A DNA stretch of 64,000 bases from a virus. Positions 1,351 to 50,429 of the stretch are shown in pieces. Numbering within the stretch: position 1 is the stretch's first letter; every line of letters starts with the position of its first letter. The position numbers and the translations under genes are program-made. The notes under the pieces are model-generated. The model was not told where the DNA came from. It did not search any database and saw only the letters and a program-made list of their open reading frames with translations. The stretch covers positions 1-64,000 of the IMG/VR virus record IMGVR_UViG_3300021171_000004. One strand, 5' to 3'.

Positions 1351-1877
1351 TGCTCCTTCAATTTACAGTTCAAGCCGATGATTCCATCTGGATCGTGGAT
1401 ACTCAGTTTCTCAATTGGGCCCGCGTTTCCGCTCCAGGTACGGACCCAATTTCCACCGTGCTCGAATCGGGTAAACTGATTCCACAGGGGTTCGGTGTGT
1501 ATGCGTTCGAGGGCCGCACACCTGAAACGGAAGGCCCAGGCGCAGGAATCTGTTCCGTAGGTACGTATCTGGTCGGCCTCGGAAACACCATTAAAATCTA
1601 CATCCGCACAAACGTACCTATTAAGGATTTTACTATGCCCGCTCCGATCCGTCAGATTTTGTATGAAATCCTGCCTACGGATCCTAAGCAAATCGAAAGC
1701 TCGATTCAGGAGATAGCAAATGGACAAGCAGCGGAATCATCGGGACCGCAAGAACCCCAAATCAGCCGAGAGCTACCAGAAACAGCGACACGAACAGAAC
1801 AGCCAGAGGCCGAAACAAGTGTGGAATTCCCAAGCGAAAATCTGGGAGAATCGGTAGATACGGGCGGCGAAAGTTAG
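1350..1877 (+). CDS. Unknown protein, 175 aa, acidic C-terminal tail
   Basis: ATG overlaps the previous TAA. The first 110 residues look globular; the last 60 are rich in Glu, Ser, Pro and Thr and probably disordered. The final base of its TAG stop is the first base of a GTTCAC-WWW-GTGAAC palindrome. No family recognised. Confidence 0.7.
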   Translation: MLLQFTVQADDSIWIVDTQFLNWARVSAPGTDPISTVLESGKLIPQGFGVYAFEGRTPETEGPGAGICSVGTYLVGLGNTIKIYIRTNVPIKDFTMPAPIRQILYEILPTDPKQIESSIQEIANGQAAESSGPQEPQISRELPETATRTEQPEAETSVEFPSENLGESVDTGGES

Positions 1878-1891
1878 TTCACTAAGTGAAC
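1877..1891. promoter_or_regulatory. Dispersed palindrome, site 1 (centre TAA)
   Basis: Perfect GTTCAC-TAA-GTGAAC starting on the last base of a stop codon, 4 nt before the next start codon. Confidence 0.8.
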
Positions 1892-1895
1892 AACC

Positions 1896-2087
1896 ATGTG
1901 GATAGAAATCCTAATCCTGCTCGCGATTGTGGTGGAAATCGGATGGTCTATTTACGTACGAAAACAGGATGCTGAGGCCCTCACGCTTTTAAAGGAAATC
2001 AAAACCATTCTGGAAGATTCTAACGCAGAATTGGCCGATATCCGCGACGAAACAGTGGAAGGAAAAGATGAGCCAACATCAAGCTAA
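1896..2087 (+). CDS. Small membrane-anchored coiled-coil protein
   Basis: 63 aa: a hydrophobic segment at residues 2-19 followed by a charged helix (KQDAEALTLLKEIKTILEDS) suited to coiled coil. It overlaps the RNA ligase start by 20 bp. The topology resembles phage lysis accessory or spanin-like subunits, but nothing proves that. Confidence 0.6.
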   Translation: MWIEILILLAIVVEIGWSIYVRKQDAEALTLLKEIKTILEDSNAELADIRDETVEGKDEPTSS

Positions 2088-3270
2088 AGTAGTTCGTATC
2101 ACAGAAATCCTCCCACATAAAAATGCCGACTCCCTCGGCTTAGTCGAGATCGGCGGATTCCAAGTAGTGGTGCGTCTAGAACAATTCAAAGTCGGAGATT
2201 TAGCTATTTACGTGGAACCCGATTCTATTGTGCCCGAACTTCCGCAATTCAGTTTTGTGTGGGAAAAGGATGGTGCAGGCCAGCTACGAGTATTGGTTCC
2301 AGAAGATCCAATTCCAGAAAGATATCGTCGAATTACCGTTCGAAAATTCCGAAAGGAATGGTCCGAAGGTTTACTCATGCCGATTCAGGAATTTCGAGAA
2401 ACTTTCGATGCGCAGGAAGGCGCGGACGTAGCCGAACTGTTAGGCATTACCCATTGGAACCCGCCCGAGGACCAAGAAGACCGCGAACCCAGTTCGAAGC
2501 AATCCAAGACGATGCCTCGCTCTTTTAAGGGTTGGATTTATTTCCTCAAAAACTGGGCCGTTAAGATCATCACTCTGGGCCAGTACGATCCGTGGGGTGA
2601 GTGTGGCGGCGCGAACGAAAAAGCACCCCGGAACACACCGCCAGTTTACGACGTGGAAAACTTCAAACACTACAAAGATGTTTTCAATGCCGCTGTCACC
2701 GAAGGCGATATCACCATGCCCGCAGAAACGGTGGTAGTTACCGAGAAAATCCACGGCTCGAACGGGCGCTTCCTTTTCCAAGCGGATTTGCTGGGCGGCG
2801 GGAAAATGTACGCAGGGAGTCGCAAGCTGTGGAAAAAAGCAGGCAGCACAAATATTTGGCGGAAAATTCTGTCTACGAATTCCGATATCGAAAAATGGTG
2901 TCGGGAGCATCCAGGATATGTGCTCTACGGTGAAGCGGTGCCCACACAGGGCGGATTCGAGTACGGACACACCAAAGACGCACCGCACCTGTTTTTGTTC
3001 GATATACGAACCCCAAACGGCAACTGGGTAACTTATACCGATGCCCGCGGAATGACGGGCGGATACAATATCGAATGGGCTCCTCTGCTCTATCACGGGC
3101 CGTACGATCTCGAAAAGATTTCCTCTTTGGTGGACGGAAAAACCAAGACAGGCGGAAACCATATTCGGGAGGGTGTCGTGATCCGGACGGAGCCGGAACG
3201 CCATGTGCGCGGGTTGGGTCGGGTCCAACTAAAAATTGTCTCGAATGACTACCTGAAAAAAGAACAATGA
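2068..3270 (+). CDS. RNA ligase, Rnl5/DRB0094-like
   Basis: 400-aa ATP-dependent RNA ligase with an N-terminal OB-like domain (residues 5-110) before the nucleotidyltransferase core, the order seen in Deinococcus DraRnl. Motif I is TEKIHGSNGR with the predicted adenylated lysine at K227; motif III is LYGEA (286-290), motif IV REGVVIRTE (367-375) and motif V LKIVS (388-392). It would seal RNA nicks via an enzyme-AMP intermediate. Such enzymes in phages repair RNA cut by host anticodon nucleases; a tRNA-Asn lies 8 kb downstream. All catalytic motifs are intact. Confidence 0.88.
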   Translation: MSQHQAKVVRITEILPHKNADSLGLVEIGGFQVVVRLEQFKVGDLAIYVEPDSIVPELPQFSFVWEKDGAGQLRVLVPEDPIPERYRRITVRKFRKEWSEGLLMPIQEFRETFDAQEGADVAELLGITHWNPPEDQEDREPSSKQSKTMPRSFKGWIYFLKNWAVKIITLGQYDPWGECGGANEKAPRNTPPVYDVENFKHYKDVFNAAVTEGDITMPAETVVVTEKIHGSNGRFLFQADLLGGGKMYAGSRKLWKKAGSTNIWRKILSTNSDIEKWCREHPGYVLYGEAVPTQGGFEYGHTKDAPHLFLFDIRTPNGNWVTYTDARGMTGGYNIEWAPLLYHGPYDLEKISSLVDGKTKTGGNHIREGVVIRTEPERHVRGLGRVQLKIVSNDYLKKEQ

Positions 3271-3437
3271 AAACCTGGCAGGTAGTCCTTCTAGTCTATC
3301 TCACAACTGGGGTGGTTGGTGCGTACTTAGGCAGGGCCGGGAGTCCGCTCTGGGTGGATTTTTTGATGGCTCTGGCAATCAGTCTGTTGGGAATTCTGTT
3401 GATTCGTCGGATACGGAATCAAAATCCAAGCAAATAA
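3267..3437 (+). CDS. Small two-segment membrane protein
   Basis: 56 aa with hydrophobic segments at residues 5-20 and 30-46 and a basic tail (RRIRNQNPSK). Its ATG overlaps the ligase TGA (ATGA), so it is probably translated by coupling. Its 3' end overlaps the 3' end of the minus-strand gene at 3379-3585. Confidence 0.6.
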   Translation: MKTWQVVLLVYLTTGVVGAYLGRAGSPLWVDFLMALAISLLGILLIRRIRNQNPSK

Positions 3438-3585
3438 TATCCTCTGGTTCGTGCGGGAAATCTTCTAGATATTTCGCGAGGCAATCCAGACAAATTTCGT
3501 CTTCTGCCAAGCCGTCTTTTTCCTGTTCACATAGTGAACAAATCAACGGTGCCTCCGGATTTCTGTGACACGGCTCGCTACGCAC
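3379..3585 (-). CDS. Small zinc-ribbon-like protein
   Basis: 68 aa with CSLC and CLDC motifs, giving a four-cysteine zinc-ribbon pattern, and an acidic C-terminus. GTG start overlapping the preceding 30-aa gene. Last gene of a four-gene minus-strand operon. Palindrome site 2 is inside its coding sequence. Confidence 0.6.
   Translation of the reverse strand: MRSEPCHRNPEAPLICSLCEQEKDGLAEDEICLDCLAKYLEDFPHEPEDIICLDFDSVSDESTEFPTD
3525..3539. promoter_or_regulatory. Dispersed palindrome, site 2 (centre ATA)
   Basis: Perfect GTTCAC-ATA-GTGAAC inside the minus-strand zinc-ribbon gene, near its 5' end. Confidence 0.75.
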
Positions 3586-3635
3586 ACCGCCGCCAGCAAG
3601 AGCATCAAGCCTAAAGCGATTAGCAGGCCAGTCAC
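3543..3635 (-). CDS. 30-aa single-span membrane peptide
   Basis: GTG start overlapping the TGA of the previous gene (GTGA). Residues 3-20 are hydrophobic (LLIALGLMLLLAAVCVA), followed by RVTEIRRHR. Phage membrane peptides of this size often act in lysis or superinfection control; no homolog recognised. Confidence 0.5.
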   Translation of the reverse strand: MTGLLIALGLMLLLAAVCVASRVTEIRRHR

Positions 3636-3939: not shown

Positions 3940-3944
3940 AAGAA

Positions 3945-4224: not shown

Positions 4225-4442
4225 TTTTGGAAGTCAAACAAGTCGAACCAAAGGTTTGGGGTTTGTACGTAAACGGAATCCTGTTCGGAACATCCAAAAG
4301 CCGATTCGATGCGGATCATGGAAAAGTAATCCTGGAAAACGCCTTCGACCGGGTAGAAAAAGGATTGGACCCGCCGAGCGTTCCGGACGCCACAGGGTTC
4401 AGTTCACAAAGTGAACAGATAACGGACATTCTAGACACATGA
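4221..4442 (+). CDS. Unknown protein, 73 aa
   Basis: TTG start in a TTGA overlap with the previous stop. Begins with a compact beta-like region (VWGLYVNGILFGTSKSRFDAD), followed by an amphipathic helix. Palindrome site 3 is within its 3' end and encodes SQSEQ. Its last codons overlap the next ATG. Confidence 0.6.
   Translation: MILEVKQVEPKVWGLYVNGILFGTSKSRFDADHGKVILENAFDRVEKGLDPPSVPDATGFSSQSEQITDILDT
4402..4416. promoter_or_regulatory. Dispersed palindrome, site 3 (centre AAA)
   Basis: Perfect GTTCAC-AAA-GTGAAC near the 3' end of the 73-aa gene, 22 nt before the next start codon. Confidence 0.75.
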
Positions 4443-6089: not shown

Positions 6090-6118
6090 ACCGTACACAT
6101 AGTGAACAGCCGTGTCAA
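6090..6118 (-). promoter_or_regulatory. Promoter with overlapping palindromic operator
   Basis: TTGACA (6118-6113), 17-bp spacer, TACGGT (6095-6090). A palindrome with one mismatch (plus strand 6093-6107, GTACAC-ATA-GTGAAC) begins 5 bp after the -35 box and covers the -10 region. Drives the secreted protein gene. Confidence 0.6.
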
Positions 6119-7515: not shown

Positions 7516-7941
7516 ATGCTCGTACTAGTCCCGTACGCTGATTTTATTGCTGTTGGTGGTGCCGCTGTCGCGGTTATTGCTCTGATTCACAGTCTAGCCA
7601 AGAAAGCCGGACCTGCGGGCGCTACTGGGCCGCAGGGGAAGCAAGGAATTCCCGGAGTCCAAGGTCCGATTGGCCCGCAGGGGCCAGCAGGAGTGGCCGG
7701 GGCGAAGGGCGACAAAGGCGATTCTGTGAAGGGTGCGGATGGGGCACCGGGTCGAGATGGGAAAGACGGGGCGTCTGTAAAAGGTGACAAGGGTGATAAA
7801 GGCGATAAAGGCGATTCTGTCAAAGGCGATAAGGGTGACTCCGTGAAGGGCGACAAAGGGGATAAAGGTGATTCCGTTGTCGGGCCCAAGGGTGATAAGG
7901 GAGACAAAGGCGATAAAGGGGACAAGGGCGATCACGCTTAA
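7516..7941 (+). CDS. Membrane-anchored collagen-like protein
   Basis: 141 aa. Residues 8-27 form a hydrophobic N-terminal anchor; from about residue 32 to the end the protein is Gly-X-Y repeats ([13 protein letters not shown], then [12 protein letters not shown]). Collagen-like stretches form trimeric rods and in phages usually occur in fibres or surface proteins; here the membrane anchor suggests display on the infected cell. The repeated GDKGDS units make the DNA internally repetitive. Confidence 0.85.
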
Positions 7942-7947: not shown

Positions 7948-7962
7948 GTTCACAATGTGAAC
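7948..7962. promoter_or_regulatory. Dispersed palindrome, site 4 (centre AAT)
   Basis: Perfect GTTCAC-AAT-GTGAAC, 7 nt after the collagen-like stop codon. Confidence 0.8.
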
Positions 7963-8322: not shown

Positions 8323-8499
8323 ATGACAACACGAATTCACATAGTGAACTTCGGGCCCGATAAGGTCGAAGCGAGCGTAGAATCCACTAATATTACGTCC
8401 GCGCCAGAAGTAATTTGGCCCAACCAATATAAAGATTTTTACGTTTACGACAATCACGATATCGTGGTGAAAGAAATTCCGAACTCGAAGCCTGTATGA
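8323..8499 (+). CDS. Unknown protein, 58 aa
   Basis: ATG directly after the previous stop; TGA overlaps the next ATG. Palindrome site 5 forms codons 5-9. Polar sequence ending EIPNSKPV. No family recognised. Confidence 0.55.
   Translation: MTTRIHIVNFGPDKVEASVESTNITSAPEVIWPNQYKDFYVYDNHDIVVKEIPNSKPV
8335..8349. promoter_or_regulatory. Dispersed palindrome, site 5 (centre ATA)
   Basis: ATTCAC-ATA-GTGAAC (one mismatch), 13 nt after a start codon. Confidence 0.7.
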
Positions 8500-9056: not shown

Positions 9057-9855
9057 ACTGTACCATCAAATCCCGCCCGATCCCCCGGGGAGCCCTGTGA
9101 AGAATTTCTATATCGAAGCTGTCATTGTTTGCCGTGAGTACGATGATTTTTTGCGGAGTACGCTTCCGCACAATAAACAACTTTTCGACCGAGTAGTTGT
9201 GGTCACATCTCCAGAGGATAAAAAGACGCAGAAATTGTGCGAATTTTATCATGTGGAGTGTGTCCAAACTGACGCGCTCGGTACGAAGCAGAAAAAGTTT
9301 TGCAAAGGCGCGGGCGTAAACGAAGGACTTGCCCGGCTTTCGAAAAAAGGCTGGGTTTTGCATCTCGACGCCGATATCTGGTTGCCGCCACAAACCAGAA
9401 TTTTGCTCGAACAGGCCCAGTTAGACGAGAAAATGATTTATGGAATTGACCGATTCAACGTCCGTGGCTATTCCAAATGGGAAAAATTTCTAAAGCGCCC
9501 TGTTTTGCAGCACGAATGCGGGTCCTACATCCATCTCGATAATTCTTTCCCAGTAGGAACCCGAGTGATGCAAAGTCACATGCATGGGTACGTACCAATC
9601 GGTTTTTTCCAACTGTGGTGTCCCGCGGTTTCTGGAATTAACAAATATATCGAAGGCCACGCAGACGCGGGCAAGGAAGATATTCTTTTTTCATGGCAAT
9701 GGCCGCGAGCCTCGCGAGGATTCATTCCGGAAATAGTCGCCTATCATCTCGAAAGCGAGGATTCAGGTTTTGGGAAAAACTGGGCAGGCAGGAAAACTTC
9801 ACAGTTTGAGCACGTTTCCTGGATACGAAAAATTCTAAGGTGGTTCACAAAGTGA
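9046..9855 (+). CDS. Glycosyltransferase, GT-A type
   Basis: 269 aa. ATG at 9046 is chosen because it overlaps the upstream stop; an in-frame ATG at 9001 exists. IEAVIVCREYDDFL resembles a GT-A N-terminal strand and WVLHLDADIWLP carries the metal-binding DxD in its usual place. It probably transfers a nucleotide-sugar residue to a phage or host surface component. Another glyco/methyl cassette is at 25.9-28.8 kb. Confidence 0.7.
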   Translation: MPVELYHQIPPDPPGSPVKNFYIEAVIVCREYDDFLRSTLPHNKQLFDRVVVVTSPEDKKTQKLCEFYHVECVQTDALGTKQKKFCKGAGVNEGLARLSKKGWVLHLDADIWLPPQTRILLEQAQLDEKMIYGIDRFNVRGYSKWEKFLKRPVLQHECGSYIHLDNSFPVGTRVMQSHMHGYVPIGFFQLWCPAVSGINKYIEGHADAGKEDILFSWQWPRASRGFIPEIVAYHLESEDSGFGKNWAGRKTSQFEHVSWIRKILRWFTK

Positions 9856-9857
9856 AT
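9843..9857. promoter_or_regulatory. Dispersed palindrome, site 6 (centre AAA)
   Basis: GTTCAC-AAA-GTGAAT (one mismatch); it contains the TGA stop of one gene and the GTG start of the next. Confidence 0.75.
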
Positions 9858-10298
9858 TTAAGTGAACGGCCCGTAAACGGGCAATTGAAACACAAAATCG
9901 GCTCTGTCGAAATAAATGTCGATAACAAGGCGGGATGGGAAGACTACGATTTCGGAATGTATCTGGGAGATTATGTTCGAACTGTTCGACAAGAGCGCGA
10001 ACAATTAATTCAAAAATGTCGCGAAGCCGGAGCAAGAATGCTCCATCCGAACGATGGGTGGGTTGGCCGCGATAATGGAAAGCCGGTCGCGCTTCGGAGT
10101 ACCTATCCAGATTTTAATGACAATCCTAAAGTGGGGGATTTAATCGCGCTTGGATTCAGCATTAAAGATATAGATTTGTTTCGCGTAGTCGCGAAGGACG
10201 GAAATACGTACGCACTAGAGTTTTTTAGTTCACTTATTGAACAACCGTCTCTCGAAACTACTTTGGATAAACTTCTGAAGATTATCAAAAGATGGTAA
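9852..10298 (+). CDS. Unknown protein, 148 aa
   Basis: GTG in a GTGA overlap inside palindrome site 6; another GTG lies at 9840. A globular protein with beta-rich centre; palindrome site 7 is inside its 3' part. No family recognised. Confidence 0.6.
   Translation: MNLSERPVNGQLKHKIGSVEINVDNKAGWEDYDFGMYLGDYVRTVRQEREQLIQKCREAGARMLHPNDGWVGRDNGKPVALRSTYPDFNDNPKVGDLIALGFSIKDIDLFRVVAKDGNTYALEFFSSLIEQPSLETTLDKLLKIIKRW
10228..10242. promoter_or_regulatory. Dispersed palindrome, site 7 (centre TTA)
   Basis: GTTCAC-TTA-TTGAAC (one mismatch) within the 148-aa gene. Confidence 0.65.
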
Positions 10299-10992: not shown

Positions 10993-11068
10993 TGGCCTGT
11001 GGTCCAACGGGCAGGACGCGAAACTGTTAATTTCGACGGTGAAGGTTCGAATCCTTCCGGGCCAGCCA
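10993..11068 (+). tRNA. tRNA-Asn (GTT)
   Basis: 76 nt folding as a full cloverleaf: acceptor TGGCCTG/CGGGCCA with one G-U pair, D stem GTCC/GGAC, anticodon stem CGAAA/TTTCG with loop CTGTTAA (anticodon GTT), T stem GAAGG/CCTTC with loop TTCGAAT, discriminator G and an encoded CCA. It lies next to the integrase operon, where an attachment site would be expected, but the tRNA is intact. Confidence 0.93.
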
Positions 11069-11159: not shown

Positions 11160-11375
11160 TTATAGCTCCCCCGAAGATACACGAACAAGAAAATCACCAG
11201 ACGGAATTATTCGGCCCTCATGTCTTCGCAAGCAAACAAAGCCCGCAGCTAACAAAGCCTCGAACGCTTCCGTAATTGTACGAGCGTCCGATAGAAAGTT
11301 GTAGCGCACAAAATACAGGTCTTTGGTTTTCTTCGAAAGTTGCGTGACGGAAACAGTCCATTGTTTTTCGGGCAT
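11160..11375 (-). CDS. Unknown protein, 71 aa, last gene of integrase operon
   Basis: ATG overlaps the integrase TGA. Compact alpha/beta composition (TVSVTQLSKKTKDLYFVRY, then AFEALLAAGFVCLRR), possibly a small winged-helix or excisionase-like regulator, but that is only suggested by size and position. Confidence 0.55.
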   Translation of the reverse strand: MPEKQWTVSVTQLSKKTKDLYFVRYNFLSDARTITEAFEALLAAGFVCLRRHEGRIIPSGDFLVRVSSGEL

Positions 11376-11932
11376 CAGAATATTGACATCAGGGCATCGT
11401 GTGTTTTTTCCGCGACTTCGGCATCGTTTAGATGAACGTACTTCATAGTCGAGCTAATCGAAGCGTGCCCGAGTCTTTGTTGAACCACCGCTAGGTTCAC
11501 ATTCGCACGAATCAAATGGGTAGCTATCGAGTGCTTTAAGCTGTGTGGTCCGAAATTGATTCCAGCTTTTCGTGCGTGTTTGTGAAAAATAAAATTGAAT
11601 GATTTCGGATGCAAGGTCCCACCCTTCGCGCTCGGAAATAGCGCGTCTCCCGCATCCGTAGGGCGAACTCTCATCCAATCCCGGAGCCCCCTCTCCAAAT
11701 TTAAGAGTGGTTCGCCCTTATGATTTTCCAAGGGTTGAAGTGTGTGTTTTGAACCTTTCAACCGTTTGATCGAAAGCGCACCGTCAATAATATCAGTTGT
11801 CCGTAGCGCCGTGACTTCCCCAGCGCGAAGGCCGTGACGGTACGCACACAAAATCAAAAGCCAGTCCCGCAGGGACTCAGCACGAGCGATTTTCAGGACG
11901 GACAAAAGTTCAGACGGTTGCAGATAGTTCAT
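11375..11932 (-). CDS. Minimal tyrosine recombinase/integrase
   Basis: 185 aa from ATG 11932, which overlaps the previous gene by 23 bp; a longer frame would run across that gene. It is essentially only the catalytic domain: R36 in HGLRAGE, PHSLKHSIATHL (H130, K133 in place of the usual Arg, H134), LGHAS (H156) and nucleophile Y165 in STMKYVHL. The N-terminal core-binding domain is missing or very short. Expected to perform site-specific recombination in establishing or leaving lysogeny. The HxxK variant of the normally HxxR box is the odd point. Confidence 0.85.
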   Translation of the reverse strand: MNYLQPSELLSVLKIARAESLRDWLLILCAYRHGLRAGEVTALRTTDIIDGALSIKRLKGSKHTLQPLENHKGEPLLNLERGLRDWMRVRPTDAGDALFPSAKGGTLHPKSFNFIFHKHARKAGINFGPHSLKHSIATHLIRANVNLAVVQQRLGHASISSTMKYVHLNDAEVAEKTHDALMSIF

Positions 11933-12167
11933 CAGAGTTTTCCTTTTTCGGACGTTCGCCCTCACCTGGCGTGAAGCCATCCGGGTCATTGTTGAGAGCG
12001 TACGAACCTTTGCATTCAAGATGCATGTACCAATCTTGCCAGTCGCCCTGCCACATTCCTTTGAAATGATAGCAGGTTTCTCCTGTTTCAATTTTTTGGT
12101 AGCACCATTCGCAGCGATGCGGTTTTCTCGCTTGGAGGTTTTTTCCTTCTCCGAAATCGCTCATCAC
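11910..12167 (-). CDS. Cys-rich small protein, 85 aa
   Basis: Contains KPHRCEWCYQKIETGETCYHF and HLECKGSYA, a zinc-knuckle pattern (CxxC, C, C). ATG overlaps the previous stop region; the 3' end overlaps the integrase start. Possibly a DNA-binding partner of the integrase, inferred from position only. Confidence 0.65.
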   Translation of the reverse strand: MMSDFGEGKNLQARKPHRCEWCYQKIETGETCYHFKGMWQGDWQDWYMHLECKGSYALNNDPDGFTPGEGERPKKENSDELSATV

Positions 12168-12559: not shown

Positions 12560-12588
12560 ATGTTCACATAGTGAATTAAGGTTGTCAA
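12560..12588 (-). promoter_or_regulatory. Integrase operon promoter with operator
   Basis: TTGACA (12588-12583), 17-bp spacer, GAACAT (12565-12560). Palindrome site 8 starts exactly 6 bp after the -35 box and its right arm forms most of the -10 box. Confidence 0.7.
12562..12576. promoter_or_regulatory. Dispersed palindrome, site 8 (centre ATA)
   Basis: GTTCAC-ATA-GTGAAT (one mismatch) covering spacer and -10 of the integrase operon promoter. Confidence 0.8.
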
Positions 12589-13350: not shown

Positions 13351-13365
13351 CTTCACATTGTGAAC
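13351..13365. promoter_or_regulatory. Dispersed palindrome, site 9 (centre ATT)
   Basis: CTTCAC-ATT-GTGAAC (one mismatch), 5 nt after a stop codon. Confidence 0.75.
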
Positions 13366-14733: not shown

Positions 14734-15394
14734 ATTAGAAGCGCTTCGAGCCACAGCATACCAAGAAGGAATATGGGAGAAGCGATACAACGCAGAGAAA
14801 CAGTGGAAGAATTATTATCGCGATTGGTTGTATGATTATTCGAAAGAAGCGGGCGAGGCGAAGCGAACTCTTCAAGAAAAACTTACCATCGAAAATGAAA
14901 ACGTCGGCCAACTAAAAGATTTGCTCGCCCAAGCAGAATCTCGACTCACCGAACGAAACCAAACAGTCGCCAAATTCCTCCATAACGGAATCAATCTGGC
15001 CGCGGAGCATCGTAAACAACAGCAAGTTGCAATTGATTATTGTGTGGAAGCATTCGGGTGGCGCGACAAATACATTAAACTTTTAGTCGAGCGGGACAAT
15101 TTGCGTTCCGAACTCGCCCTGCAAAAAGAAATACCAAAAATGGTCGAGCAGGTTGTTCACTATGTGAACGAGTGGAATCCAGGAACGTTTTACGCGACGA
15201 AGGAACCCGATCCAATTCCGGCGAACCCGCCACAAACAAAATCCTATGCCCGTCTCGCAGTTGCCTTACTAATTGGCGCAACGATTGGCCTGACCATCCT
15301 GTGCGCGTACGAAGCTAAGATTATTCACAATCAGCGCGAACTTATTTTGGGACTCTGGAGATTCATTCAAGCAGGATGCCCGTTTACGGGGTAA
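14711..15394 (+). CDS. Coiled-coil protein with C-terminal membrane segment
   Basis: 227 aa: a long charged helix (residues 5-145) and a hydrophobic span at 180-199 (LAVALLIGATIGLTILCAY) near the C-terminus. Palindrome site 10 is in frame and encodes VHYVNE. Spanin- or scaffold-like architecture, unproven. Last gene before the module boundary. Confidence 0.65.
   Translation: MPSIKKSELEALRATAYQEGIWEKRYNAEKQWKNYYRDWLYDYSKEAGEAKRTLQEKLTIENENVGQLKDLLAQAESRLTERNQTVAKFLHNGINLAAEHRKQQQVAIDYCVEAFGWRDKYIKLLVERDNLRSELALQKEIPKMVEQVVHYVNEWNPGTFYATKEPDPIPANPPQTKSYARLAVALLIGATIGLTILCAYEAKIIHNQRELILGLWRFIQAGCPFTG
15155..15169. promoter_or_regulatory. Dispersed palindrome, site 10 (centre TAT)
   Basis: Perfect GTTCAC-TAT-GTGAAC within the coiled-coil gene. 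Confidence 0.7.
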
Positions 15395-19384: not shown

Positions 19385-19519
19385 ATGAAAGCATGGGAAG
19401 TTTTGATGCAACGCGCGATAATTCAAGCTACGCGCGAGGCTATAGTCCGTCTTTGTTCACAATATGAACAGAAAAAACCGCACGTACAAACCCTAACAAG
19501 AGACAATGGGAAACCCTAA
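19385..19519 (+). CDS. Small basic helical protein, 44 aa
   Basis: Reads MKAWEVLMQRAIIQATREAI; palindrome site 11 lies in frame and gives SQYEQ. Overlaps the next ATG by 14 bp. Confidence 0.5.
   Translation: MKAWEVLMQRAIIQATREAIVRLCSQYEQKKPHVQTLTRDNGKP
19455..19469. promoter_or_regulatory. Dispersed palindrome, site 11 (centre AAT)
   Basis: GTTCAC-AAT-ATGAAC (one mismatch); the only copy inside the CTAG-rich module. Confidence 0.65.
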
Positions 19520-22851: not shown

Positions 22852-23254
22852 AATTCTTCTCGGCGTCGAAATCTACGCCATCGCAGCCACTTCACTCGTC
22901 GCGCTGTCGGTAATTTTATCCACTGTCCGAACGCTTACGTCGAAGACTACCGTTTTTAATTATCCAGCGGACGTTCCGAAAGCCGAAGCCAAAGCTGCCG
23001 CCGAAGGTTATTTTCATAAAGCCTTGGTTGCGCTGGATATTTTCCTGAACGTTTTGGTATTCGCAGGACGCCAAGGCGAAACAATGTCAACTCATGCCTG
23101 GGTCGCAGCCGGAGAAAAGAAACTCTGGGGCCGATTGATGAACTGGTGGCTTGACGGCTTCCAGAATTCGCACGGGCCGCAAGCCGCTTCTGGCGATTTA
23201 GAACGGGCGTCCACAGAAGTAGAAAGACTGAAAGGTCTTTTGGGAATCAAGTAG
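22835..23254 (+). CDS. Two-span membrane protein, 139 aa
   Basis: GTG 22835 is chosen inside the previous gene's end. A membrane span at residues 10-28 and a second hydrophobic stretch, then LDIFLNVLVFAGRQGETMST, a pattern like the 'NVL-GG-DET-S' motif of small membrane proteins found near phage packaging or lysis genes. Exact role unknown. Confidence 0.6.
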   Translation: MPILHKILLGVEIYAIAATSLVALSVILSTVRTLTSKTTVFNYPADVPKAEAKAAAEGYFHKALVALDIFLNVLVFAGRQGETMSTHAWVAAGEKKLWGRLMNWWLDGFQNSHGPQAASGDLERASTEVERLKGLLGIK

Positions 23255-23268
23255 TTCACAATATGAAC
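23254..23268. promoter_or_regulatory. Dispersed palindrome, site 12 (centre AAT)
   Basis: GTTCAC-AAT-ATGAAC (one mismatch) starting on the last base of a TAG stop, exactly as at site 1. Confidence 0.8.
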
Positions 23269-25237: not shown

Positions 25238-25252
25238 GTTCACATTGTGAAC
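25238..25252. promoter_or_regulatory. Dispersed palindrome, site 13 (centre ATT), over the +1 position
   Basis: Perfect GTTCAC-ATT-GTGAAC positioned over +1 to +15 of the promoter at 25203-25231. Confidence 0.85.
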
Positions 25253-30263: not shown

Positions 30264-30278
30264 GTTCACTTTGTGAAT
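30264..30278. promoter_or_regulatory. Dispersed palindrome, site 14 (centre TTT)
   Basis: GTTCAC-TTT-GTGAAT (one mismatch) ending 1 nt before the ATG at 30280, after a GGGGAG/CTCCCC hairpin. Confidence 0.7.
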
Positions 30279-37738: not shown

Positions 37739-39861
37739 TGGCTAGGATAGAACCAGATGCCGCAAACCCGCAAGGTCAAATTGACCCAAAAGATTTTATA
37801 AGTGCTTCCGAAGTTACTAAAGCGGGCGCGTTGCAGTTGGTTTGTCAGGATGCGCAATCCAGTGAGGCTTGGTTAACTCAAAACTACTGGAATATCAGAT
37901 GGCGTGAGGCGGATGCGCTGTATCAATCCCCGCCTTCGGTTCTCATGTGGGAAAATACCACAACGCCGCGTTCAAATGTAAATCGCTTCGTAGTTGCGGA
38001 AACTGTGAATGCAATTCACCCGCAAATCATGAACGGGCTATTTTATGAGCAGCCGCCATTCGTTCTGCGTCCGCGCCCGGTAATTACCCAGAACACTTCC
38101 CGGGCGATTTCCACGGTTATTGCACAGGAATTGGATGAAATAAACTTTCGGCAGGAAACCGATTGGGGGCTTTTTTCCTCGCTCAACTTCGGCACAGGTA
38201 TTTGGAAATGGGGTTTTAAAACCTACCCGAAGAAAACCACGAAGTACGTTCCGGTAGGAAACACCGTTTCGGTGGCGGCTCCCCTCCCGAATGCTCCGGC
38301 CACGATTCTCGAAACACCAGAATCCCTGATGTACAAGCGGGTAGTCGGTGAAGAAGATGTTCACACACCGACTTTCGAAAACAAAGATATCCGTTATGTT
38401 TTGCCTGATCCGGCGCTCAAAGTCCCGGATATCCGCAAGGGCAAGTTTGTAATCGACAAGATGTATCTCACGTACAAGGACCTGATTAAACTAGCGTCCG
38501 AAGAGTACGTGGATGAGGATCCAAAAACCGGAAAGCAAACGCTAAAGAAGCGCTACGATCTTCCGAGCGAAGCAGAAATCAAAGAGTGGTTTACTAAACC
38601 CAAAGAATTGCCTGCGGCTGGGGCGGCGGGCGAGTCCATGTCTCCGCAGGGCACGGCTTATATCCATCACGCCAAGCCTGCCTTTCAACCTTCGACCGCG
38701 GATCCACTAGACGAACCTCTAGAAGTTTTGGAGCGCTGGGACAACGATAAAGTCATCACGGTTTTAAATCGTGTAAAAGTCATACGAAACGAGCCGAACG
38801 AATTTGGAGTTATCCCTTTCCTCTCGCTTAATTGGTGGAATATTCCTGATGCTTTTTGGGGTCTCGGTCTTGGGCGCGTCATTGGTGTCGAACAAAGAGT
38901 TCAAGCGGGCCTCATTAACGCCTGTCTTGATTTGGCATCCCTTATCGTTAATCCGATGTTCGTTCGGGCTCGTGGCGCGAATATTAACGAGCAGCAGATA
39001 CGTCAACGAATTGGTGGAATCATCGCAGTTGACGGGGACACGCAAAAAGCCCTAACTCTACTCGAACAGCCGAGTATTCCCGCCGAAGTCGTGCAGCAAA
39101 TTGCTTTGTCGCAATCCCGAGTTGCAACCACGTCCGGAGCGGACCAGCAACTTACCATGGGTGTGAACACGGGTAAGGGCGGGGCCATGCGCACAGGCAC
39201 GGGCGCTGCGGGTATGATTCAGGCAACCATGAATCGTATCGGCGGTTTTGCCGAAGCTTTCGTGCGTCAAGTCTACGAACCCTTTATCTACACAGTTCAC
39301 AAACTGAACAAAGAGAAGATGCCGATTTCCTATATTCGGAAACTTCTCGGGGATAAGCTGGGCAAGGACTTCAAGTTCGACGCGAACGAGTTTTTGAACG
39401 CGCCCGCTGAGTTCGAAGTTCTGGCTGGTTCGCACTTAGCCGCAAAATCCCAGATGGCGCAGTCGCTGTTCATGATGCTCCAGCTTTTTGAGAATGCTCC
39501 TTTGATGCAGCAACTGAACGAAATCAATCTCAAGAAGGTGAACATAGAAGAATTGTTCCACATGGTGCATGACATCTCCGGGTGGAAGAATTACTACGAC
39601 ATCATCCAAGACATGACGCCCGAAGAAATCCAAAGGCAGCAAGCGAAGTCGCAAGGTGCCCAGATGCAGGCCAAGTTGCAGGGTCAGATGGCCATGGAAG
39701 ATAAGAAGTTCCAGAATAACCAGCAACTCATAGACCAGGAGAATGAAGGCCGAGCCGCACGGGATATTTTCCGCGTGATTGCGGAGAAGTCTGCGGAGCC
39801 AGAAGCACTACTTGGAGCAGAAGCCCCGTCCGCAGGAGTAGGAAGTTCTGAACAAGGATAA
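37738..39861 (+). CDS. Portal protein, podovirus type
   Basis: 707 aa from ATG 37738, which overlaps the endonuclease TGA. Helical protein with ERWDNDKVITVLNRV, LGLGRVIGVEQRVQAGLIN and a Gln-rich helical C-terminus (EIQRQQAKSQGAQMQAKLQ) characteristic of P22/N4-like portals. Forms the dodecameric ring at the packaging vertex. Followed at short distance by scaffold and capsid genes. Confidence 0.85.
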   Translation: MARIEPDAANPQGQIDPKDFISASEVTKAGALQLVCQDAQSSEAWLTQNYWNIRWREADALYQSPPSVLMWENTTTPRSNVNRFVVAETVNAIHPQIMNGLFYEQPPFVLRPRPVITQNTSRAISTVIAQELDEINFRQETDWGLFSSLNFGTGIWKWGFKTYPKKTTKYVPVGNTVSVAAPLPNAPATILETPESLMYKRVVGEEDVHTPTFENKDIRYVLPDPALKVPDIRKGKFVIDKMYLTYKDLIKLASEEYVDEDPKTGKQTLKKRYDLPSEAEIKEWFTKPKELPAAGAAGESMSPQGTAYIHHAKPAFQPSTADPLDEPLEVLERWDNDKVITVLNRVKVIRNEPNEFGVIPFLSLNWWNIPDAFWGLGLGRVIGVEQRVQAGLINACLDLASLIVNPMFVRARGANINEQQIRQRIGGIIAVDGDTQKALTLLEQPSIPAEVVQQIALSQSRVATTSGADQQLTMGVNTGKGGAMRTGTGAAGMIQATMNRIGGFAEAFVRQVYEPFIYTVHKLNKEKMPISYIRKLLGDKLGKDFKFDANEFLNAPAEFEVLAGSHLAAKSQMAQSLFMMLQLFENAPLMQQLNEINLKKVNIEELFHMVHDISGWKNYYDIIQDMTPEEIQRQQAKSQGAQMQAKLQGQMAMEDKKFQNNQQLIDQENEGRAARDIFRVIAEKSAEPEALLGAEAPSAGVGSSEQG
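39295..39309. promoter_or_regulatory. Degenerate palindrome in the portal gene
   Basis: GTTCAC-AAA-CTGAAC, one mismatch in the right arm. Not counted among the 17; may be chance. Confidence 0.35.
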
Positions 39862-40251: not shown

Positions 40252-40442
40252 ACGGTTATTCGGCACACCATACAAGTCCAGACAGGCGGTTCCCAACCGT
40301 AGTTAGACCCGGAATCCCAATAGGCTTTATGAACATGCTTGTTGGTGCCGCAGTTTGAGCATTGCGGCGGGGTTACTTTTTTGCAATTGCAGTCGCGATA
40401 CGAACAAACACTCTCTTCGGCTTTAGGTTTTTTGTGTCCCAT
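40248..40442 (-). CDS. Zinc-finger protein overlapping the DruA-like gene
   Basis: 64 aa (MGHKKPKAEES start). Eight Cys: CSYRDCNC, CSNCGTNKH and CMVC suggest two zinc sites. Overlaps the preceding minus gene by 70 bp in another frame. An earlier in-frame start is possible. Confidence 0.55.
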   Translation of the reverse strand: MGHKKPKAEESVCSYRDCNCKKVTPPQCSNCGTNKHVHKAYWDSGSNYGWEPPVWTCMVCRITV

Positions 40443-40945
40443 ACTCTTTTTCCTGTCCATGAGTCTGTTCCTTTTCCGGCCACCCGTTTACAGGTTTGGC
40501 CTTTCGTGATTCCAACTTCTGTCCAACCATCTCGTTTGTAGATTTCTCCAGTTCGAGGGAGTTCAATTAGTGTCTCGAACCCAACCACTTCGTCTCCATA
40601 TTTCTTCTGCCAGTCCGTGGCAACCGTTTGACGGAATAGTTCAAGGACCTTCACAGTGAAGTTTCGAATCGGATATTTTCCGTGCGGTTCGACATGATAG
40701 AAAATGTTGTTCACAATGTGAACTAGCATCTGTCTTTTTGTTTCAGGTGTTATCCCGAAAAATTTGTCTCGGCCAACCAAATGCAACGTGGCCGAACCGC
40801 CAACAATTCCACCATAGTATTGCCCGCCCCACAGCACGGTATAGCAGATGTTTCGGCCTACGAACCCTTTCGGGTTCGAATAGTGAACCGCCATGTCTGC
40901 CAGCAAACGCGGGTCAGTTCTTTTGATTCTTTCTAACCTAAGCAT
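40373..40945 (-). CDS. DruA (DUF4338)/Mom-like GNAT-type protein
   Basis: 190 aa from ATG 40945, 7 nt after a TATAAT box and so probably leaderless; the longer frame to 41170 runs through the promoter. HYSNPKG, GGIVGGSA, GRDKFFG and then DWQKKYG...FETL...RTGEIYKRDGW reproduce the residue order of DUF4338 (DruA) proteins and of Mom-type DNA-modifying GNATs. May modify DNA or act in phage-host conflict. No partner Druantia genes nearby. Confidence 0.6.
   Translation of the reverse strand: MLRLERIKRTDPRLLADMAVHYSNPKGFVGRNICYTVLWGGQYYGGIVGGSATLHLVGRDKFFGITPETKRQMLVHIVNNIFYHVEPHGKYPIRNFTVKVLELFRQTVATDWQKKYGDEVVGFETLIELPRTGEIYKRDGWTEVGITKGQTCKRVAGKGTDSWTGKRVWDTKNLKPKRVFVRIATAIAKK
40709..40723. promoter_or_regulatory. 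Dispersed palindrome, site 15 (centre AAT)
   Basis: Perfect GTTCAC-AAT-GTGAAC within the DruA-like gene. Confidence 0.75.
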
Positions 40946-44761: not shown

Positions 44762-44952
44762 TGGCAAAAACAGTTCAACAGATGTCCGCAGCCGAATATA
44801 AAACTTGGTTGCTTGAGAATCCGGACGAAGCCAAAAAACTTGACGCCCCAACTGCCGCGCCAGTAGTTCCAACCGTGGTGTGGCGAAACGGCGTGGCTGT
44901 TCAGATTGCGGACAACAGCCAACTCACCAAAAACGGGGTGGTTCAGGGTTAG
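44761..44952 (+). CDS. Small protein with scaffold-like MSAAEY motif
   Basis: 63 aa beginning MAKTVQQMSAAEYKTWLLEN; the same helix (NKMSAAEYQDKLKDPE) ends the scaffold-like protein at 40991. The rest is Pro/Val-rich. Possibly another capsid-binding peptide or a decoration of the head. Confidence 0.6.
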   Translation: MAKTVQQMSAAEYKTWLLENPDEAKKLDAPTAAPVVPTVVWRNGVAVQIADNSQLTKNGVVQG

Positions 44953-46685
44953 ACTTTCTGCTCCCCTGTTGGTTTGAACCGTTTCACGAACTCGATGGTT
45001 TTGTTCGTAATCGGCTCATGCTTTGTTGCCTCTACCATAGCGGCCAGCTTTAGAAGGTTTTTGACATCTCGACCCGTAAGGTTGGGGTTCTCTTCTACGA
45101 TCACATCTACCATTTTCGGGGCAATTTTGATTCCCGACGATTCTGCGAGCACTTTCCAGATTCTTTTTTGGTCTTCCACGTTCGGCACTTTATATGGAAG
45201 TCTAGCTACGCAACGACTAGCAATAGCATCATCCACATCATCTGGGCGGTTTGTAGTCAAAAACAGAATATTGGATTGGTATTCCAGCACCCGCAAAAAT
45301 ACCCCCACAATGGCGTTTTGGCTCAGGTCGCTGCCGCGCTCGTGAACGTATACATCGGCCTCGTCCAAAAGCATTACAGCTTTCCAGCGTTTTGCCCGAG
45401 TGAACACTTTCAGGAGTTCATCCTCTAAGTCGTTCGGGTCTGTTCCCAACTGAGAACATTGCACTGAATAGAGGGCTCGCTCCTCGGATTCGGCATACAC
45501 TTCAGCGGTCAAAGTTTTTCCGACGCCAGGTAATCCTGTCAGAAGAACCACCGCACCCCCACCCTTTCCGGCAATGATATCCTTAAAGGTTTGGTCGCTA
45601 TGGGATATCAACATTTTTACAAGGTCTTTCTGTTCAATCGGTAGAATCAATTTTTCGGAGAGAGTTTTATCGTACACATACGGAGTTAGGTAGTTGAGAT
45701 GGATTTGCAGGCGCAGGTGTCTTTTTAAATCGAATACAGCTACGAAAGGGTGAATCGGAACTTCAATCTCCGGTTCTTCGATATCGTTGTCCGCGGCAAT
45801 TTCAGCAGCCTCCATATCCTCTTCCTCTGCGGAGGCTTGAATAAACAGCTTGTTTGTGTGGGATACCCAAAAGTAGCTATGAAGATACGCTTCTCGATCC
45901 GAGTCCCGCTCTTTTTCATCTTCTACGAACACATCAATTACAACGCGCGAGGGCGAACCATTTCTCTCCATTGTAACGGTATTAGTTCGATGCCAGTACC
46001 AAGAATCGCTCCGATTCGGGTTTCCGTCTAAATCATCAGTAGCGGTTCCAACCGCGTAAAATTGTTTTCCGATTTCTGGAACCGTCTCCCCGAACCGTTT
46101 TGCTTCTACTAGATATTTTGCTCTAAGTTCGGGCGTTTCCATGTAGAAATTTTTACGGGCTAGAGTTTCCAAAACGGTGTACCCAATGCAGTCCTCGCTT
46201 TCAAAGTGGACGCGAGTTTCTTTTTTACCCCCAAACTGTTCGTGGATTAAATCCATCGAGGTCCAAGCAGGTCGTACGTGGTCTCGGCCCCGTTCTTCTG
46301 GGTGGTATTCGATTTCATCTACATAGTAGGCAAGCCAAATATCCCCGTCTCCATCGTATTTCTTATAGAGCCGATGGCCTGGAACTTTACCAAGTGCCCG
46401 AACAAGAAGAGGTTTTAGATTGCGAACCGCACGAACTGTTGGAGAACCTTCACCGACAAGTGCTTGTCGCCACACAGCGATATCTTTGAGGATGACTTTA
46501 ATTCCATGGACGGTCGGGTGTTCTTGAAAAATTTTTTCGAACGCATCCAATTGTTTCGGGGTTAGCGCGGCTAAATTCACGAACGCTTCTTTTTTCCAAC
46601 TCCACGATTCTTCGTTATCGAGAAATGGTTTGAACAGCCTCAAACCGATTTCTTCAGCCACGCGCTTCGATAGACGGATTTCCAT
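44949..46685 (-). CDS. AAA+ ATPase
   Basis: 578 aa. N-terminal 370 residues of unknown fold, then an AAA+ domain: Walker A GLPGVGKT (384-391), Walker B AVMLLDEAD (436-444), sensor 1 LTTNR (476-480), arginine-finger-type ASRC. Could remodel proteins or DNA at the expense of ATP. It is the only large minus-strand gene within the virion block; its stop touches the 63-aa plus gene. Confidence 0.85.
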   Translation of the reverse strand: MEIRLSKRVAEEIGLRLFKPFLDNEESWSWKKEAFVNLAALTPKQLDAFEKIFQEHPTVHGIKVILKDIAVWRQALVGEGSPTVRAVRNLKPLLVRALGKVPGHRLYKKYDGDGDIWLAYYVDEIEYHPEERGRDHVRPAWTSMDLIHEQFGGKKETRVHFESEDCIGYTVLETLARKNFYMETPELRAKYLVEAKRFGETVPEIGKQFYAVGTATDDLDGNPNRSDSWYWHRTNTVTMERNGSPSRVVIDVFVEDEKERDSDREAYLHSYFWVSHTNKLFIQASAEEEDMEAAEIAADNDIEEPEIEVPIHPFVAVFDLKRHLRLQIHLNYLTPYVYDKTLSEKLILPIEQKDLVKMLISHSDQTFKDIIAGKGGGAVVLLTGLPGVGKTLTAEVYAESEERALYSVQCSQLGTDPNDLEDELLKVFTRAKRWKAVMLLDEADVYVHERGSDLSQNAIVGVFLRVLEYQSNILFLTTNRPDDVDDAIASRCVARLPYKVPNVEDQKRIWKVLAESSGIKIAPKMVDVIVEENPNLTGRDVKNLLKLAAMVEATKHEPITNKTIEFVKRFKPTGEQKV

Positions 46686-46726: not shown

Positions 46727-48052
46727 ATGCAATTCGCCTACGAACGTGCCCGAGTGGGCACCCGAGCGGCCCAGTGGATTAACCCCAAAAAAGACGAACT
46801 ACTCATCCCTGACCGGAAAACCGCCTACGCACTAATCGAGAAGTTCGACGTACAGTTACAGGCGAAACTGCCGCGGCACAAACGGGCTGAGATTTTGATT
46901 GCAAAAAGCATGATATATGAGGCTTTGGGCGATCAAAAGATGATGCAGGCCGCGGAAGAGGCTTTCAAGGTTACGAAAACCTCCACAACTGCCCACATGA
47001 TGGCGGTCGCCCATCACCACTTTGGGCGGCTCCAAGAAGCCTGTAATTTTTACACCTTAGCGTACCGTTTCCCGCACGAAGAGGGTTTTAACGTCGATCT
47101 GGCTTATACACAGGCCCTGCTATTCCAAGGCAGGTGGTCTGAGGCCCACAGGATGACGCTAGGACTGAAGAAACGGATGGTGTATGCCGCTTACCTGCCA
47201 GAATGGGACAGTCGGCCCTGTATGGCGCTCTCAATCGTTTCTGAGGGTGGTTTTGGGGACATAATTCAGTGCGGGCGGTGGATACCCATAATTCGAGAGA
47301 TGGTCGCGAACGTAACAGTCTACCTGCCGCCATATTTCTTCGAAACTGGGTTTGTGGACCTGATGCGGAAGCAAAGTTGGTGCCCAGAGGTCAAACTCCT
47401 AACCGACTGTCCGCAGAATGTTCCAGCGGTCGGCTTTTTCGACCTGCCAGCTATTTTTGATGTCCAGCCAGATAACATTCCGCCTTCCCTCAGTTTCAAG
47501 GCGGATCCCATACGGGTAGCGAAATACCGAGATATTCGTAATTCGCGATTCCCGAATGCCAACCTCCCGACCGTGGGCTTCTGTTTCGCGGCCCGCCAGC
47601 AAGAGACTCCTTTAGTGCCGGACGGGACGTACCGAGCCCTCACAGAGCAACAGGCGGAAAGAATTCTGGTTGCAGGATTCGAAAAAGTTCGCTTTGTGAA
47701 CTTGCAAAAAGATTTGAAAATCGACCAGTTCGCAGCACCGCTTATTGCCCGGCCAGAAATCAATTCTTGGGAAGATACGTGCGCGATTATCGAGAATCTA
47801 GATTTTGTGATTTCAGTGGACACCGCGGTTTTTCATCTCGCAGCCGCCATGGGGAAACCCGTGATTTTGATTTTATCGGGGGCCTCGGATTGGAAATTTG
47901 GTCTAAACGATGAGACGTGCCGCTGGTATTCAAACGTACGAATCATTCGCAACAATGGATTTGGTTTTGAAAACGCCGTCGAAAAGGTTATTCAGCTAGT
48001 CGAAAATGCCCAATTCCACAACCCAACTGTCGAAAATCACGCAATTCGCTAA
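46727..48052 (+). CDS. TPR-GT9-like glycosyltransferase, second copy
   Basis: 441 aa. TPR-like region (residues 40-150) and a heptosyltransferase-type domain with SEGGFGDIIQCGRWIP and ISVDTAVFHLAAAMGKPV, and WKFG shared with the protein at 27577. Starts close to the reversed ATPase gene and overlaps the adaptor gene by 47 bp. Diverged paralog, so it probably modifies another acceptor. Confidence 0.78.
   Translation: MQFAYERARVGTRAAQWINPKKDELLIPDRKTAYALIEKFDVQLQAKLPRHKRAEILIAKSMIYEALGDQKMMQAAEEAFKVTKTSTTAHMMAVAHHHFGRLQEACNFYTLAYRFPHEEGFNVDLAYTQALLFQGRWSEAHRMTLGLKKRMVYAAYLPEWDSRPCMALSIVSEGGFGDIIQCGRWIPIIREMVANVTVYLPPYFFETGFVDLMRKQSWCPEVKLLTDCPQNVPAVGFFDLPAIFDVQPDNIPPSLSFKADPIRVAKYRDIRNSRFPNANLPTVGFCFAARQQETPLVPDGTYRALTEQQAERILVAGFEKVRFVNLQKDLKIDQFAAPLIARPEINSWEDTCAIIENLDFVISVDTAVFHLAAAMGKPVILILSGASDWKFGLNDETCRWYSNVRIIRNNGFGFENAVEKVIQLVENAQFHNPTVENHAIR
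47687..47701. promoter_or_regulatory. Degenerate palindrome in the glycosyltransferase gene
   Basis: GTTCGC-TTT-GTGAAC, one mismatch in the left arm; centre still A/T only. Confidence 0.4.
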
Positions 48053-49076: not shown

Positions 49077-49321
49077 TGTTGCATTTCACGATAACAAGCG
49101 CACAGGTCACGTACGTCCAGCCGCCGCCCGTGAATTCACAAAGTGAACAGATTCCGAACACTACTTTTTTAAATGTTCAGACGGTGAATTCCAGCGAATT
49201 GGATAATCCCGGCACGAACCAACCCGCGGTAGCCAGCACTTTTCCGAGGGTGGCCGATCCCTGGATCGTGAATCCGAACTTAGTCCAAGTGTTCCCAGTG
49301 AACAATCCGCCAGCGCCATGA
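49076..49321 (+). CDS. Small Thr/Asn/Pro-rich protein, 81 aa
   Basis: Overlaps the adaptor stop. Low-complexity sequence (FLNVQTVNSSELDNPGT) containing palindrome site 16, which gives SQSEQ. Probably structural. Confidence 0.55.
   Translation: MLHFTITSAQVTYVQPPPVNSQSEQIPNTTFLNVQTVNSSELDNPGTNQPAVASTFPRVADPWIVNPNLVQVFPVNNPPAP
49134..49148. promoter_or_regulatory. Dispersed palindrome, site 16 (centre AAA)
   Basis: ATTCAC-AAA-GTGAAC (one mismatch) within the 81-aa gene. Confidence 0.7.
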
Positions 49322-49500
49322 CAGAAAACATAACCATCACATCCCAGCAAGCAACCGCTCCGCAGAGTCCGACACCCGGCGCGAAAACATGGGCCCAGTT
49401 TTACGGTACGCCCGCACTAACCCGAACCGTAACGGCTTCGGTTGTCGCGAATCCCGTGAGTTCGAGCACAGCTACGATTAACATTCCGTTGGGGAATTAA
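49318..49500 (+). CDS. Small Thr-rich protein, 60 aa
   Basis: ATGA overlaps on both sides. TITSQQATAPQSPTPG start resembles the TITASQVNPQPSPTPN of the next gene, so they look like duplicated small proteins. Confidence 0.55.
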   Translation: MTENITITSQQATAPQSPTPGAKTWAQFYGTPALTRTVTASVVANPVSSSTATINIPLGN

Positions 49501-49970
49501 TGTCCGAACTTCACACAACCATAACCGCCAGCCAAGTCAATCCGCAGCCTAGTCCGACTCCGAATCTGGCTACGAACACAGTAACACCAAATGCGAACTG
49601 GGACGCTTTTTCCAAGACGCCCGCAGTTCCCGTGGTGCCGTCTTCCACTCTGGATAATCCTGGAGTGGTTCACGCGCCTCCGGCGAGTTCTCCGAATGTC
49701 GCGCCGAGCACACACGACCCGGCTTTAATTATTACCACGGCAGATGCCCGAGCAACTTACCAATGGCCGGACGGTTCATGGCGGCAATATCCCGTAAACC
49801 AAACCGCTGAAAATCTCGCGTACGGAACAGGTCCACTCTACGCAAACGCGGGCGGGTTCGGCAGCAACAAAAATTCAGGAAGCACAGGGCCGGGGCAAAC
49901 GTACAATGCAAACTCTTTTGCGCCGGGAGTCGGCTTCGCGCTCGTGCCGAATAATAGCCCGTACAAATAG
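49500..49970 (+). CDS. Small Pro/Thr-rich protein, 156 aa
   Basis: Begins MSELHTTITASQVNPQPSPTP, related to its upstream neighbour. A central YQWPDGSWRQYPVNQTAENL, Gly/Asn-rich end. No family recognised. Confidence 0.55.
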   Translation: MSELHTTITASQVNPQPSPTPNLATNTVTPNANWDAFSKTPAVPVVPSSTLDNPGVVHAPPASSPNVAPSTHDPALIITTADARATYQWPDGSWRQYPVNQTAENLAYGTGPLYANAGGFGSNKNSGSTGPGQTYNANSFAPGVGFALVPNNSPYK

Positions 49971-49972
49971 AG

Positions 49973-50383
49973 CTAGTCAAAATACTCTATTTTTTCAATG
50001 AAGCCGAGAATTTCTAGCGCTTCCACAGCGCACCCATAGTGAGTAACAAAATGACGATTCTCTCTATGTTGGACAGTAAACTCGTCCGGGTTTGCGATTC
50101 CCTTCGGAAGCCCGATCCCAGTAAAAGCGCCGCCAGCATTTTGGGCTTGTAACCCAATCGCGCTACGAATCTGTTGGGTTGTGATTTCTTTTACATTATA
50201 GTTGTTGGAATCGGGACCCCGTAGGGCTGTGAACACCTCCCACACAGCTTTCGCATATCTGGTCGTGGCGTGCCGTTCGTCGGGGTTCTCAATGTCATTG
50301 TTCATAAACGCGATAACATCTGAAATCAGTTTCCTAGCTTTTTTCTTCGCTTTAGAAGCATATTTTTCGTTGGGCGTTTTCAT
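49973..50383 (-). CDS. Helical protein, 136 aa, with own promoter
   Basis: Basic helical N-terminus (KYASKAKKKARKLISDVIAF), then a globular part. AGGAGGGAG before ATG. The promoter is covered by palindrome site 17, indicating independent regulation within the late block. Confidence 0.6.
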   Translation of the reverse strand: MKTPNEKYASKAKKKARKLISDVIAFMNNDIENPDERHATTRYAKAVWEVFTALRGPDSNNYNVKEITTQQIRSAIGLQAQNAGGAFTGIGLPKGIANPDEFTVQHRENRHFVTHYGCAVEALEILGFIEKIEYFD

Positions 50384-50400
50384 TACTCCCTCCTGTTTTC

Positions 50401-50429
50401 ATGTTCACATATTGAACAAACTATGTCAA
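50401..50429 (-). promoter_or_regulatory. Promoter with overlapping palindromic operator
   Basis: TTGACA (50429-50424), 17-bp spacer, GAACAT (50406-50401); palindrome site 17 begins exactly 6 bp after the -35 box. Confidence 0.7.
50403..50417. promoter_or_regulatory. Dispersed palindrome, site 17 (centre ATA)
   Basis: GTTCAC-ATA-TTGAAC (one mismatch) spanning the spacer and -10 box of the promoter at 50401-50429. Confidence 0.8.

Follow-up and report, generated by a model that had tools for sequence, protein, structure and literature searches.

The window analyzed here, the first 64 kb (64,000 nucleotides) of a 95,523-base-pair (bp) viral record (IMGVR_UViG_3300021171_000004), carries dispersed copies of a 15-bp palindrome, GTTCAC-N3-GTGAAC. 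When at most one mismatch in the arms is allowed, the window contains 20 copies, namely 7 perfect and 13 with one mismatch. The original prediction listed 17 of these, each present exactly at the start it gave, but overlooked three one-mismatch sites: GTACACATAGTGAAC (6093..6107), GTTCACAAACTGAAC (39295..39309, in the portal gene) and GTTCGCTTTGTGAAC (47687..47701). Base composition leads one to expect 0.004 perfect sites, in agreement with the earlier chance rate for the 12-bp pattern, and 0.135 one-mismatch sites, i.e., 0.14 in total (Poisson tail ~10^-35.6). The enrichment is confined to a 3-bp center; other arm spacings are not enriched. That this center consists of A/T only, as had been claimed, is true of every site then listed, but 2 of the 36 sites in the record (72112 and 93976) break the rule.

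Several copies lie at gene boundaries. GTTCACTAAGTGAAC (1877..1891) falls on the stop codon of the open reading frame (ORF) 1350-1877, and GTTCACAATATGAAC (23254..23268) likewise on a stop codon; GTTCACAATGTGAAC (7948..7962) lies 6 bp past the stop of ORF 7516-7941, CTTCACATTGTGAAC (13351..13365) 4 bp past a stop codon, and GTTCACAAAGTGAAT (9843..9857) spans a stop/start junction. GTTCACTTTGTGAAT (30264..30278) adjoins a start codon, and GTTCACATTGTGAAC (25238..25252) and GTTCACATATTGAAC (50403..50417) are located 10 bp and 5 bp ahead of one, respectively. GTTCACATAGTGAAT (12562..12576) is intergenic, ATTCACATAGTGAAC (8335..8349) sits 12 nucleotides (nt) inside an ORF, and GTTCACTATGTGAAC (15155..15169) lies within ORF 14711-15394. 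The other copies are GTTCACATAGTGAAC (3525..3539), GTTCACAAAGTGAAC (4402..4416), GTTCACTTATTGAAC (10228..10242), a second GTTCACAATATGAAC (19455..19469), a second GTTCACAATGTGAAC (40709..40723) and ATTCACAAAGTGAAC (49134..49148). None is assigned a strand.

Beyond the window, the remainder of the record holds 16 further sites. The whole record thus contains 36, of which 14 are perfect and 22 have one mismatch (third-order Markov sequences give ~0 and ~0.4, respectively), and their distribution across the genome is near-even. The extended consensus is WGTTCACWWWGTGAACW. Apart from one A/T base on each side, the flanks carry no information, so that the palindromes do not represent mobile-element copies. 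Translation of the palindrome in two of its frames gives the peptides SQSEQ and VHYVNE, and further frames and peptides are also found. As the site occurs in several reading frames, and its positions in this phage mostly differ from those in close relatives, the encoded peptides do not explain it. A repeat of CCTAGG at 15-bp spacing is a coding repeat, separate from the palindrome system.

A candidate regulator and its family

The statement that no obvious repressor is encoded holds for the window only; a candidate regulator is encoded 27 kb past its end. This 226-amino-acid protein (record 91369-92049, + strand; L006:13369-14049) falls in no named family. There is no Pfam family for it at usable expectation values (E), the best PHROG matches are of unknown function (phrog_17202 and phrog_4571 match some members of its family), and a profile search of the PDB sequences returned nothing at E up to 10. 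An AlphaFold model has a predicted local distance difference test (pLDDT) score of 83, with a helical N-terminal domain mostly above 90. When the model was compared with known structures using Foldseek, the highest-probability PDB matches (0.38-0.75) were ParB/Spo0J DNA-binding domains, with E of ~1 and a template-modeling (TM) score of 0.3; the Noc DNA-binding domain is also among the matches listed. Because the E-values are near 1, we regard this weak ParB/Noc-like resemblance as a lead, rather than as evidence of membership. The model has ~40 residues ahead of its helix-turn-helix (HTH) region, and the CTPase N-terminal domain of ParB is absent.

Relatives of the phage were found via the major capsid protein, and comprise related viral contigs together with Tunturi_3, a cultured podovirus of the acidobacterium Tunturiibacter (PMC11924767). 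Among the near-complete relatives, the closest is G009 (94 kb). Its palindrome, TTCACTNAGTGAA, has the same geometry and extends to a 21-bp consensus. GTTCA-N5-TGAAC is present in three fragmentary relatives (G001, G003 and G024) and is weaker in three others (G004, G012 and G025). Thus, the two findings that would have spoken against the palindrome as a system, namely no enrichment elsewhere in the genome or in relatives, or conservation tied to the peptides, were not obtained: the palindrome is enriched in both, and site positions are kept while the encoded peptides drift.

In the 110-kb virus G027, the regulator homolog is 31% identical. An unbiased search of this genome, over all arms of 4-6 bases and all gaps, yielded GTCC-N7-GGAC, with 56 copies against 2.2 expected; that is, the 15-bp geometry is kept and one half-site base is changed relative to the site described above. 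Further records were then picked only for encoding a regulator homolog, and subjected to the same unbiased search over arm words and gaps. In 15 of 18 independent homolog-bearing records, including short ones with few copies, the top-ranked palindrome was 15 bp long and shared this geometry; the remaining records belong to one subfamily of homologs (G035, G037 and G040). Across whole records, the counts of GTCC-N7-GGAC and of the reversed pattern were 60/3, 56/7, 53/1, 40/2, 30/2, 25/3, 21/4, 14/1 and 12/0, and so perfect copies per genome reach 60. Distant homologs are found in G008, Tunturi_3 and Tunturi_4 (gp50). In Tunturi_4, also picked only for its homolog, the site is CTGCAC-NNN-GTGCAG (12 copies of CTGCA-N5-TGCAG versus 0.07 expected; 13 sites when up to one mismatch is allowed), and in G008 TCTA-N5-TAGA occurs 9 times versus 0.27 expected. 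The half-sites drift along with the protein, being GTTCAC, GTCC(A/G) and, in Tunturi_4, CTGCAC. Among the control phages, no comparable palindrome was found in Tunturi_5 (first 50 kb) or in Arthronema TR020, and Vibrio phage ICP2 has a single weaker palindrome of different geometry. The regulator is the founding member, in this analysis, of a family in 75-110 kb soil phages whose hosts are probably Acidobacteriota.

A site lies in or adjoins the regulator gene in all 11 genomes with a strong motif. In the present record, one palindrome is found 25 nt into this gene and another near its end; the G009 ortholog, 68% identical, has one 19 nt in. All eight strong-motif genomes of the GTCC clade have a perfect site at the same position of the regulator gene, although the amino acids there differ, and in Tunturi_4 a perfect site is located 18 bp upstream of the gp50 start codon. 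Near the regulator there are also two HExxH-type metalloprotease-like genes, at record positions 92237-92578 (our own reading) and 93895-94398 (SprT-like, PF10263), and in G027 we read a sigma-factor-like gene (95018-95518) close to the regulator. The homologs of G035, G037 and G040 form a subfamily without the strong 15-bp palindrome; it is accompanied by an enriched TTGC-NN-GCAA (17 versus 3.3 in G035, 19 versus 3.3 in G040), which is possibly another operator.

Placement, conservation and orientation of the sites

Gene ends were taken from our own gene calls with a second caller, the first having missed several genes, and for Tunturi_4 from the published annotation. In 12 of 12 genomes tested, 34-55% of the sites are within 30 bp of a gene end, versus 11-17% of random positions, a 2- to 4-fold excess; in G027, many sites span a TAATG stop-start junction. 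The earlier remark that sites lie on or close to stop and start codons is correct in the sense of a bias, with 44% of the record's 36 sites in this range versus 15% of random positions; 23 of the 36 fall within genes.

To what extent intragenic sites are maintained was assessed in pairs of GTCC-clade genomes. Identity between the proteins common to a pair is typically 40-65%, and about 55% for the proteins bearing the sites; the pairs are partly non-independent through common ancestry. All eight arm bases are kept in 56% of aligned comparisons, versus 2.2% at matched positions in the same genes, while amino-acid identity over the codons involved is 63%. Thus, we conclude that the DNA word itself is under selection inside coding sequence. 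Coding constraint is rejected as its cause: more than one reading frame is used across the sites, and the word persists where the amino acids differ. The asymmetric cores tend to be oriented with transcription, by 49:6 at gene ends, 51:29 in intergenic positions and 106:66 in genes, i.e., the bias is partial.

Interpretation and alternatives

From these sequence patterns we infer, with a probability of roughly 60%, that the palindromes are operators of one dimeric, phage-encoded, sequence-specific DNA-binding protein, the product of 91369-92049, which would act in a stoperator-like manner by blocking or attenuating transcription. A dimer would place one HTH on each half of the 15-bp site (GTTCA-N5-TGAAC in this phage), and would occupy several dozen sites in nearly all parts of the genome, strongly biased to gene junctions. 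Physical binding would most likely block or attenuate transcription at these sites, that of the regulator gene included, presumably during elongation. The role of the protein may be either to keep the genome silent in lysogens or carrier cells, or to time lytic growth.

The original prediction had likewise proposed a dimeric regulator, comparable to the stoperator systems of some temperate phages. Enrichment in the genome and its relatives, conserved positions, and the gene-end and orientation biases support this core idea; a temperate lifestyle would be conjectural for this phage. A tyrosine recombinase (11375..12091, - strand; PF00589, E 5e-33), missed by both gene callers, has the catalytic domain only, and similar short ones are found in G009, G008 and Tunturi_3. 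Tyrosine recombinases occur in 10 of 16 records, with larger frames (330-403 amino acids) in several members of the wider family. A prophage search in 396 genomes of the phylum Acidobacteriota found none, and returned just a phage contig, binned in a metagenome-assembled genome, and weak hits. The tRNA-Asn gene at 10993-11068 was considered as an attachment site and rejected: its similarity to host tRNAs is mostly 77-86%, and no exact match was seen at the 3' end.

A number of observations weigh against the operator interpretation. The cultured relatives Tunturi_4 and Tunturi_3 both make clear plaques. The regulator gene of the GTCC clade adjoins primase-helicase and clamp-like genes, as read from sequence, which is unusual for a lysogeny repressor, and the structural matches of the protein are weak (E about 1; TM-score 0.3). 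The homolog subfamily of G035, G037 and G040 has only a weak TCCG-N5-CGGA, and Tunturi_3 shows only a weak palindrome signal of the same geometry. In addition, many sites are intragenic rather than at junctions, and the orientation bias at gene ends is in part forced by the TAATG junction inside the core.

The main rival is that the regulator and its sites organize or segregate the phage genome, as in a nucleoid, in partition or in nucleoid occlusion (cf. ParB, Noc and MatP), with any effect on transcription being secondary. The predicted ParB/Noc-like fold, the near-even spread of sites and the replication genes adjoining the regulator gene are all compatible with this idea. However, ParA (PF13614) is above cut-off in none of 16 records, with one sub-threshold match; the protein is too short to include a CTPase N-terminal domain; and the sites extend across whole genomes instead of clustering at a single locus, concentrate at gene ends, and track transcription in their orientation. 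A partition system as such is rejected for lack of ParA in these records and of clustered sites, and we regard genome organization in the broader sense as unlikely. Rather improbable, too, is that the regulator is not a silencer but a lytic timing factor, such as an activator, an antiterminator or an early-to-late switch. The replication neighborhood of its gene, the homologs in phages with clear plaques, and the sigma-like gene that we read close by in G027 and G034 would fit such a factor, but the sites lie in and after genes of every class, and not just ahead of promoters.

That the sites function in transcripts, as hairpins serving for termination, processing or protein binding, is very improbable. 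A 6-bp stem with a 3-nt loop could form in this phage, and the sites are close to gene ends; in most GTCC-clade genomes, though, just 3-14% of sites have complementary bases at the interior positions, leaving a 4-bp stem, 44 of 58 arm changes are uncompensated, the flanks in G009 pair without covariation, and no T-run follows the sites. Interior mismatches, absent covariation and the lack of a T-run contradict an RNA hairpin or intrinsic terminator. The bacterial parS site also contains GTTTCAC/GTGAAAC, which the half-site resembles, and the palindromes might belong to a host ParB or another host regulator. This is the least credible alternative of all: the motif shifts between phage clades along with a protein of the phage, and in Tunturi_3 and Tunturi_5, whose host genus is that of Tunturi_4, it is weak or missing. 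As the motif varies from one phage to the next, host ParB/parS is rejected.

Returning to an operator-binding regulator, a broader proposal is tentative and, in our estimate, doubtful. A CTPase-less, ParB/Noc-like protein may constitute a genome-wide control layer in a widespread group of soil phages, with up to 60 perfect operators running through coding sequence, and may act in lytic growth besides or instead of lysogeny, e.g., through elongation roadblocks or as a genome-organizing phage chromatin. The system provides operators that selection maintains within genes, and documents clearly how protein and site diverged together. It also offers a hypothesis of function for a protein family listed as unknown in public libraries, and a fingerprint by which regulators may be spotted in unannotated phages. 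As one member is found in the cultured phage Tunturi_4, which grows on Tunturiibacter, binding, specificity and the effect on transcription are testable.

Other features of the genomes are recorded here as separate observations. The two termini of the record (window 8-172; record 95474-95523) belong to a tandem array of 15-bp units, GCGGACCTAGGCGGT. The array encodes A-D-L-G-G and forms a pentapeptide-repeat gene, and the record probably represents a circle opened within this repeat. The capsid gene (41923-42945) encodes a protein that is 91-97% identical among relatives, for 74-85% identity in DNA and ~69-79% between their portal proteins. Inserts that are candidate introns or inteins interrupt the capsid gene at differing places in G009, G012 and G024. 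The late region includes minus-strand genes without counterparts in relatives (36428-36802, 40373-40894, 44949-46685, 49973-50383 and 57617-58477); for 44949-46685 there is a match to phrog_29662, a family of AAA ATP-dependent proteases. G027 carries a block of 31 tRNA genes (L089 8751-14746).

Comparison with known systems

A close analogy is with the stoperators of cluster A mycobacteriophages such as L5 and Bxb1, and their repressor Rep. In both systems, many sites are found genome-wide at short intergenic spaces and gene ends, sites are oriented with transcription (here in part), and the motif diverges along with the regulator (PMC6550527, PMC9283540). Cluster A genomes have 20-30 asymmetric sites of 13-14 bp, bound by a monomer with an HTH and a Stoperator domain. 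By contrast, the sites described here are 15 bp long and dyad-symmetric, with asymmetry confined to the core, and perfect copies number up to 60. The regulator has no detected sequence relation to any solved structure, and Rep is absent among the structural matches shown for it, ParB and Noc domains being listed instead.

The palindromic operators of KorB, from plasmid RK2, are likewise dispersed over the replicon, and KorB has a ParB-type DNA-binding domain, as weakly predicted here. KorB is a global repressor of the ParB family that represses over long range (PMC11790492). It differs from the phage protein in its CTP-binding N-terminal domain and sliding clamp, as the phage protein is without such a domain. 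In prophage SPbeta, the master regulator MrpR (YopR) recognizes SPBRE, a repeated 15-bp element found in many regions (PMC10516654). MrpR, however, has a tyrosine-recombinase fold and about ten sites in promoter regions, whereas the present regulator has a predicted ParB/Noc-like fold, and a large number of the palindromes are intragenic. The C1 operators of P1 and the conserved inverted repeats of phiC31 are also dispersed operators of phage repressors, with fewer sites and other proteins. Control through dispersed operators has thus been described in few phage lineages so far, each with its own regulator. The present system looks like an independent addition to these, in poorly known soil phages, and with more sites per genome than in cluster A.

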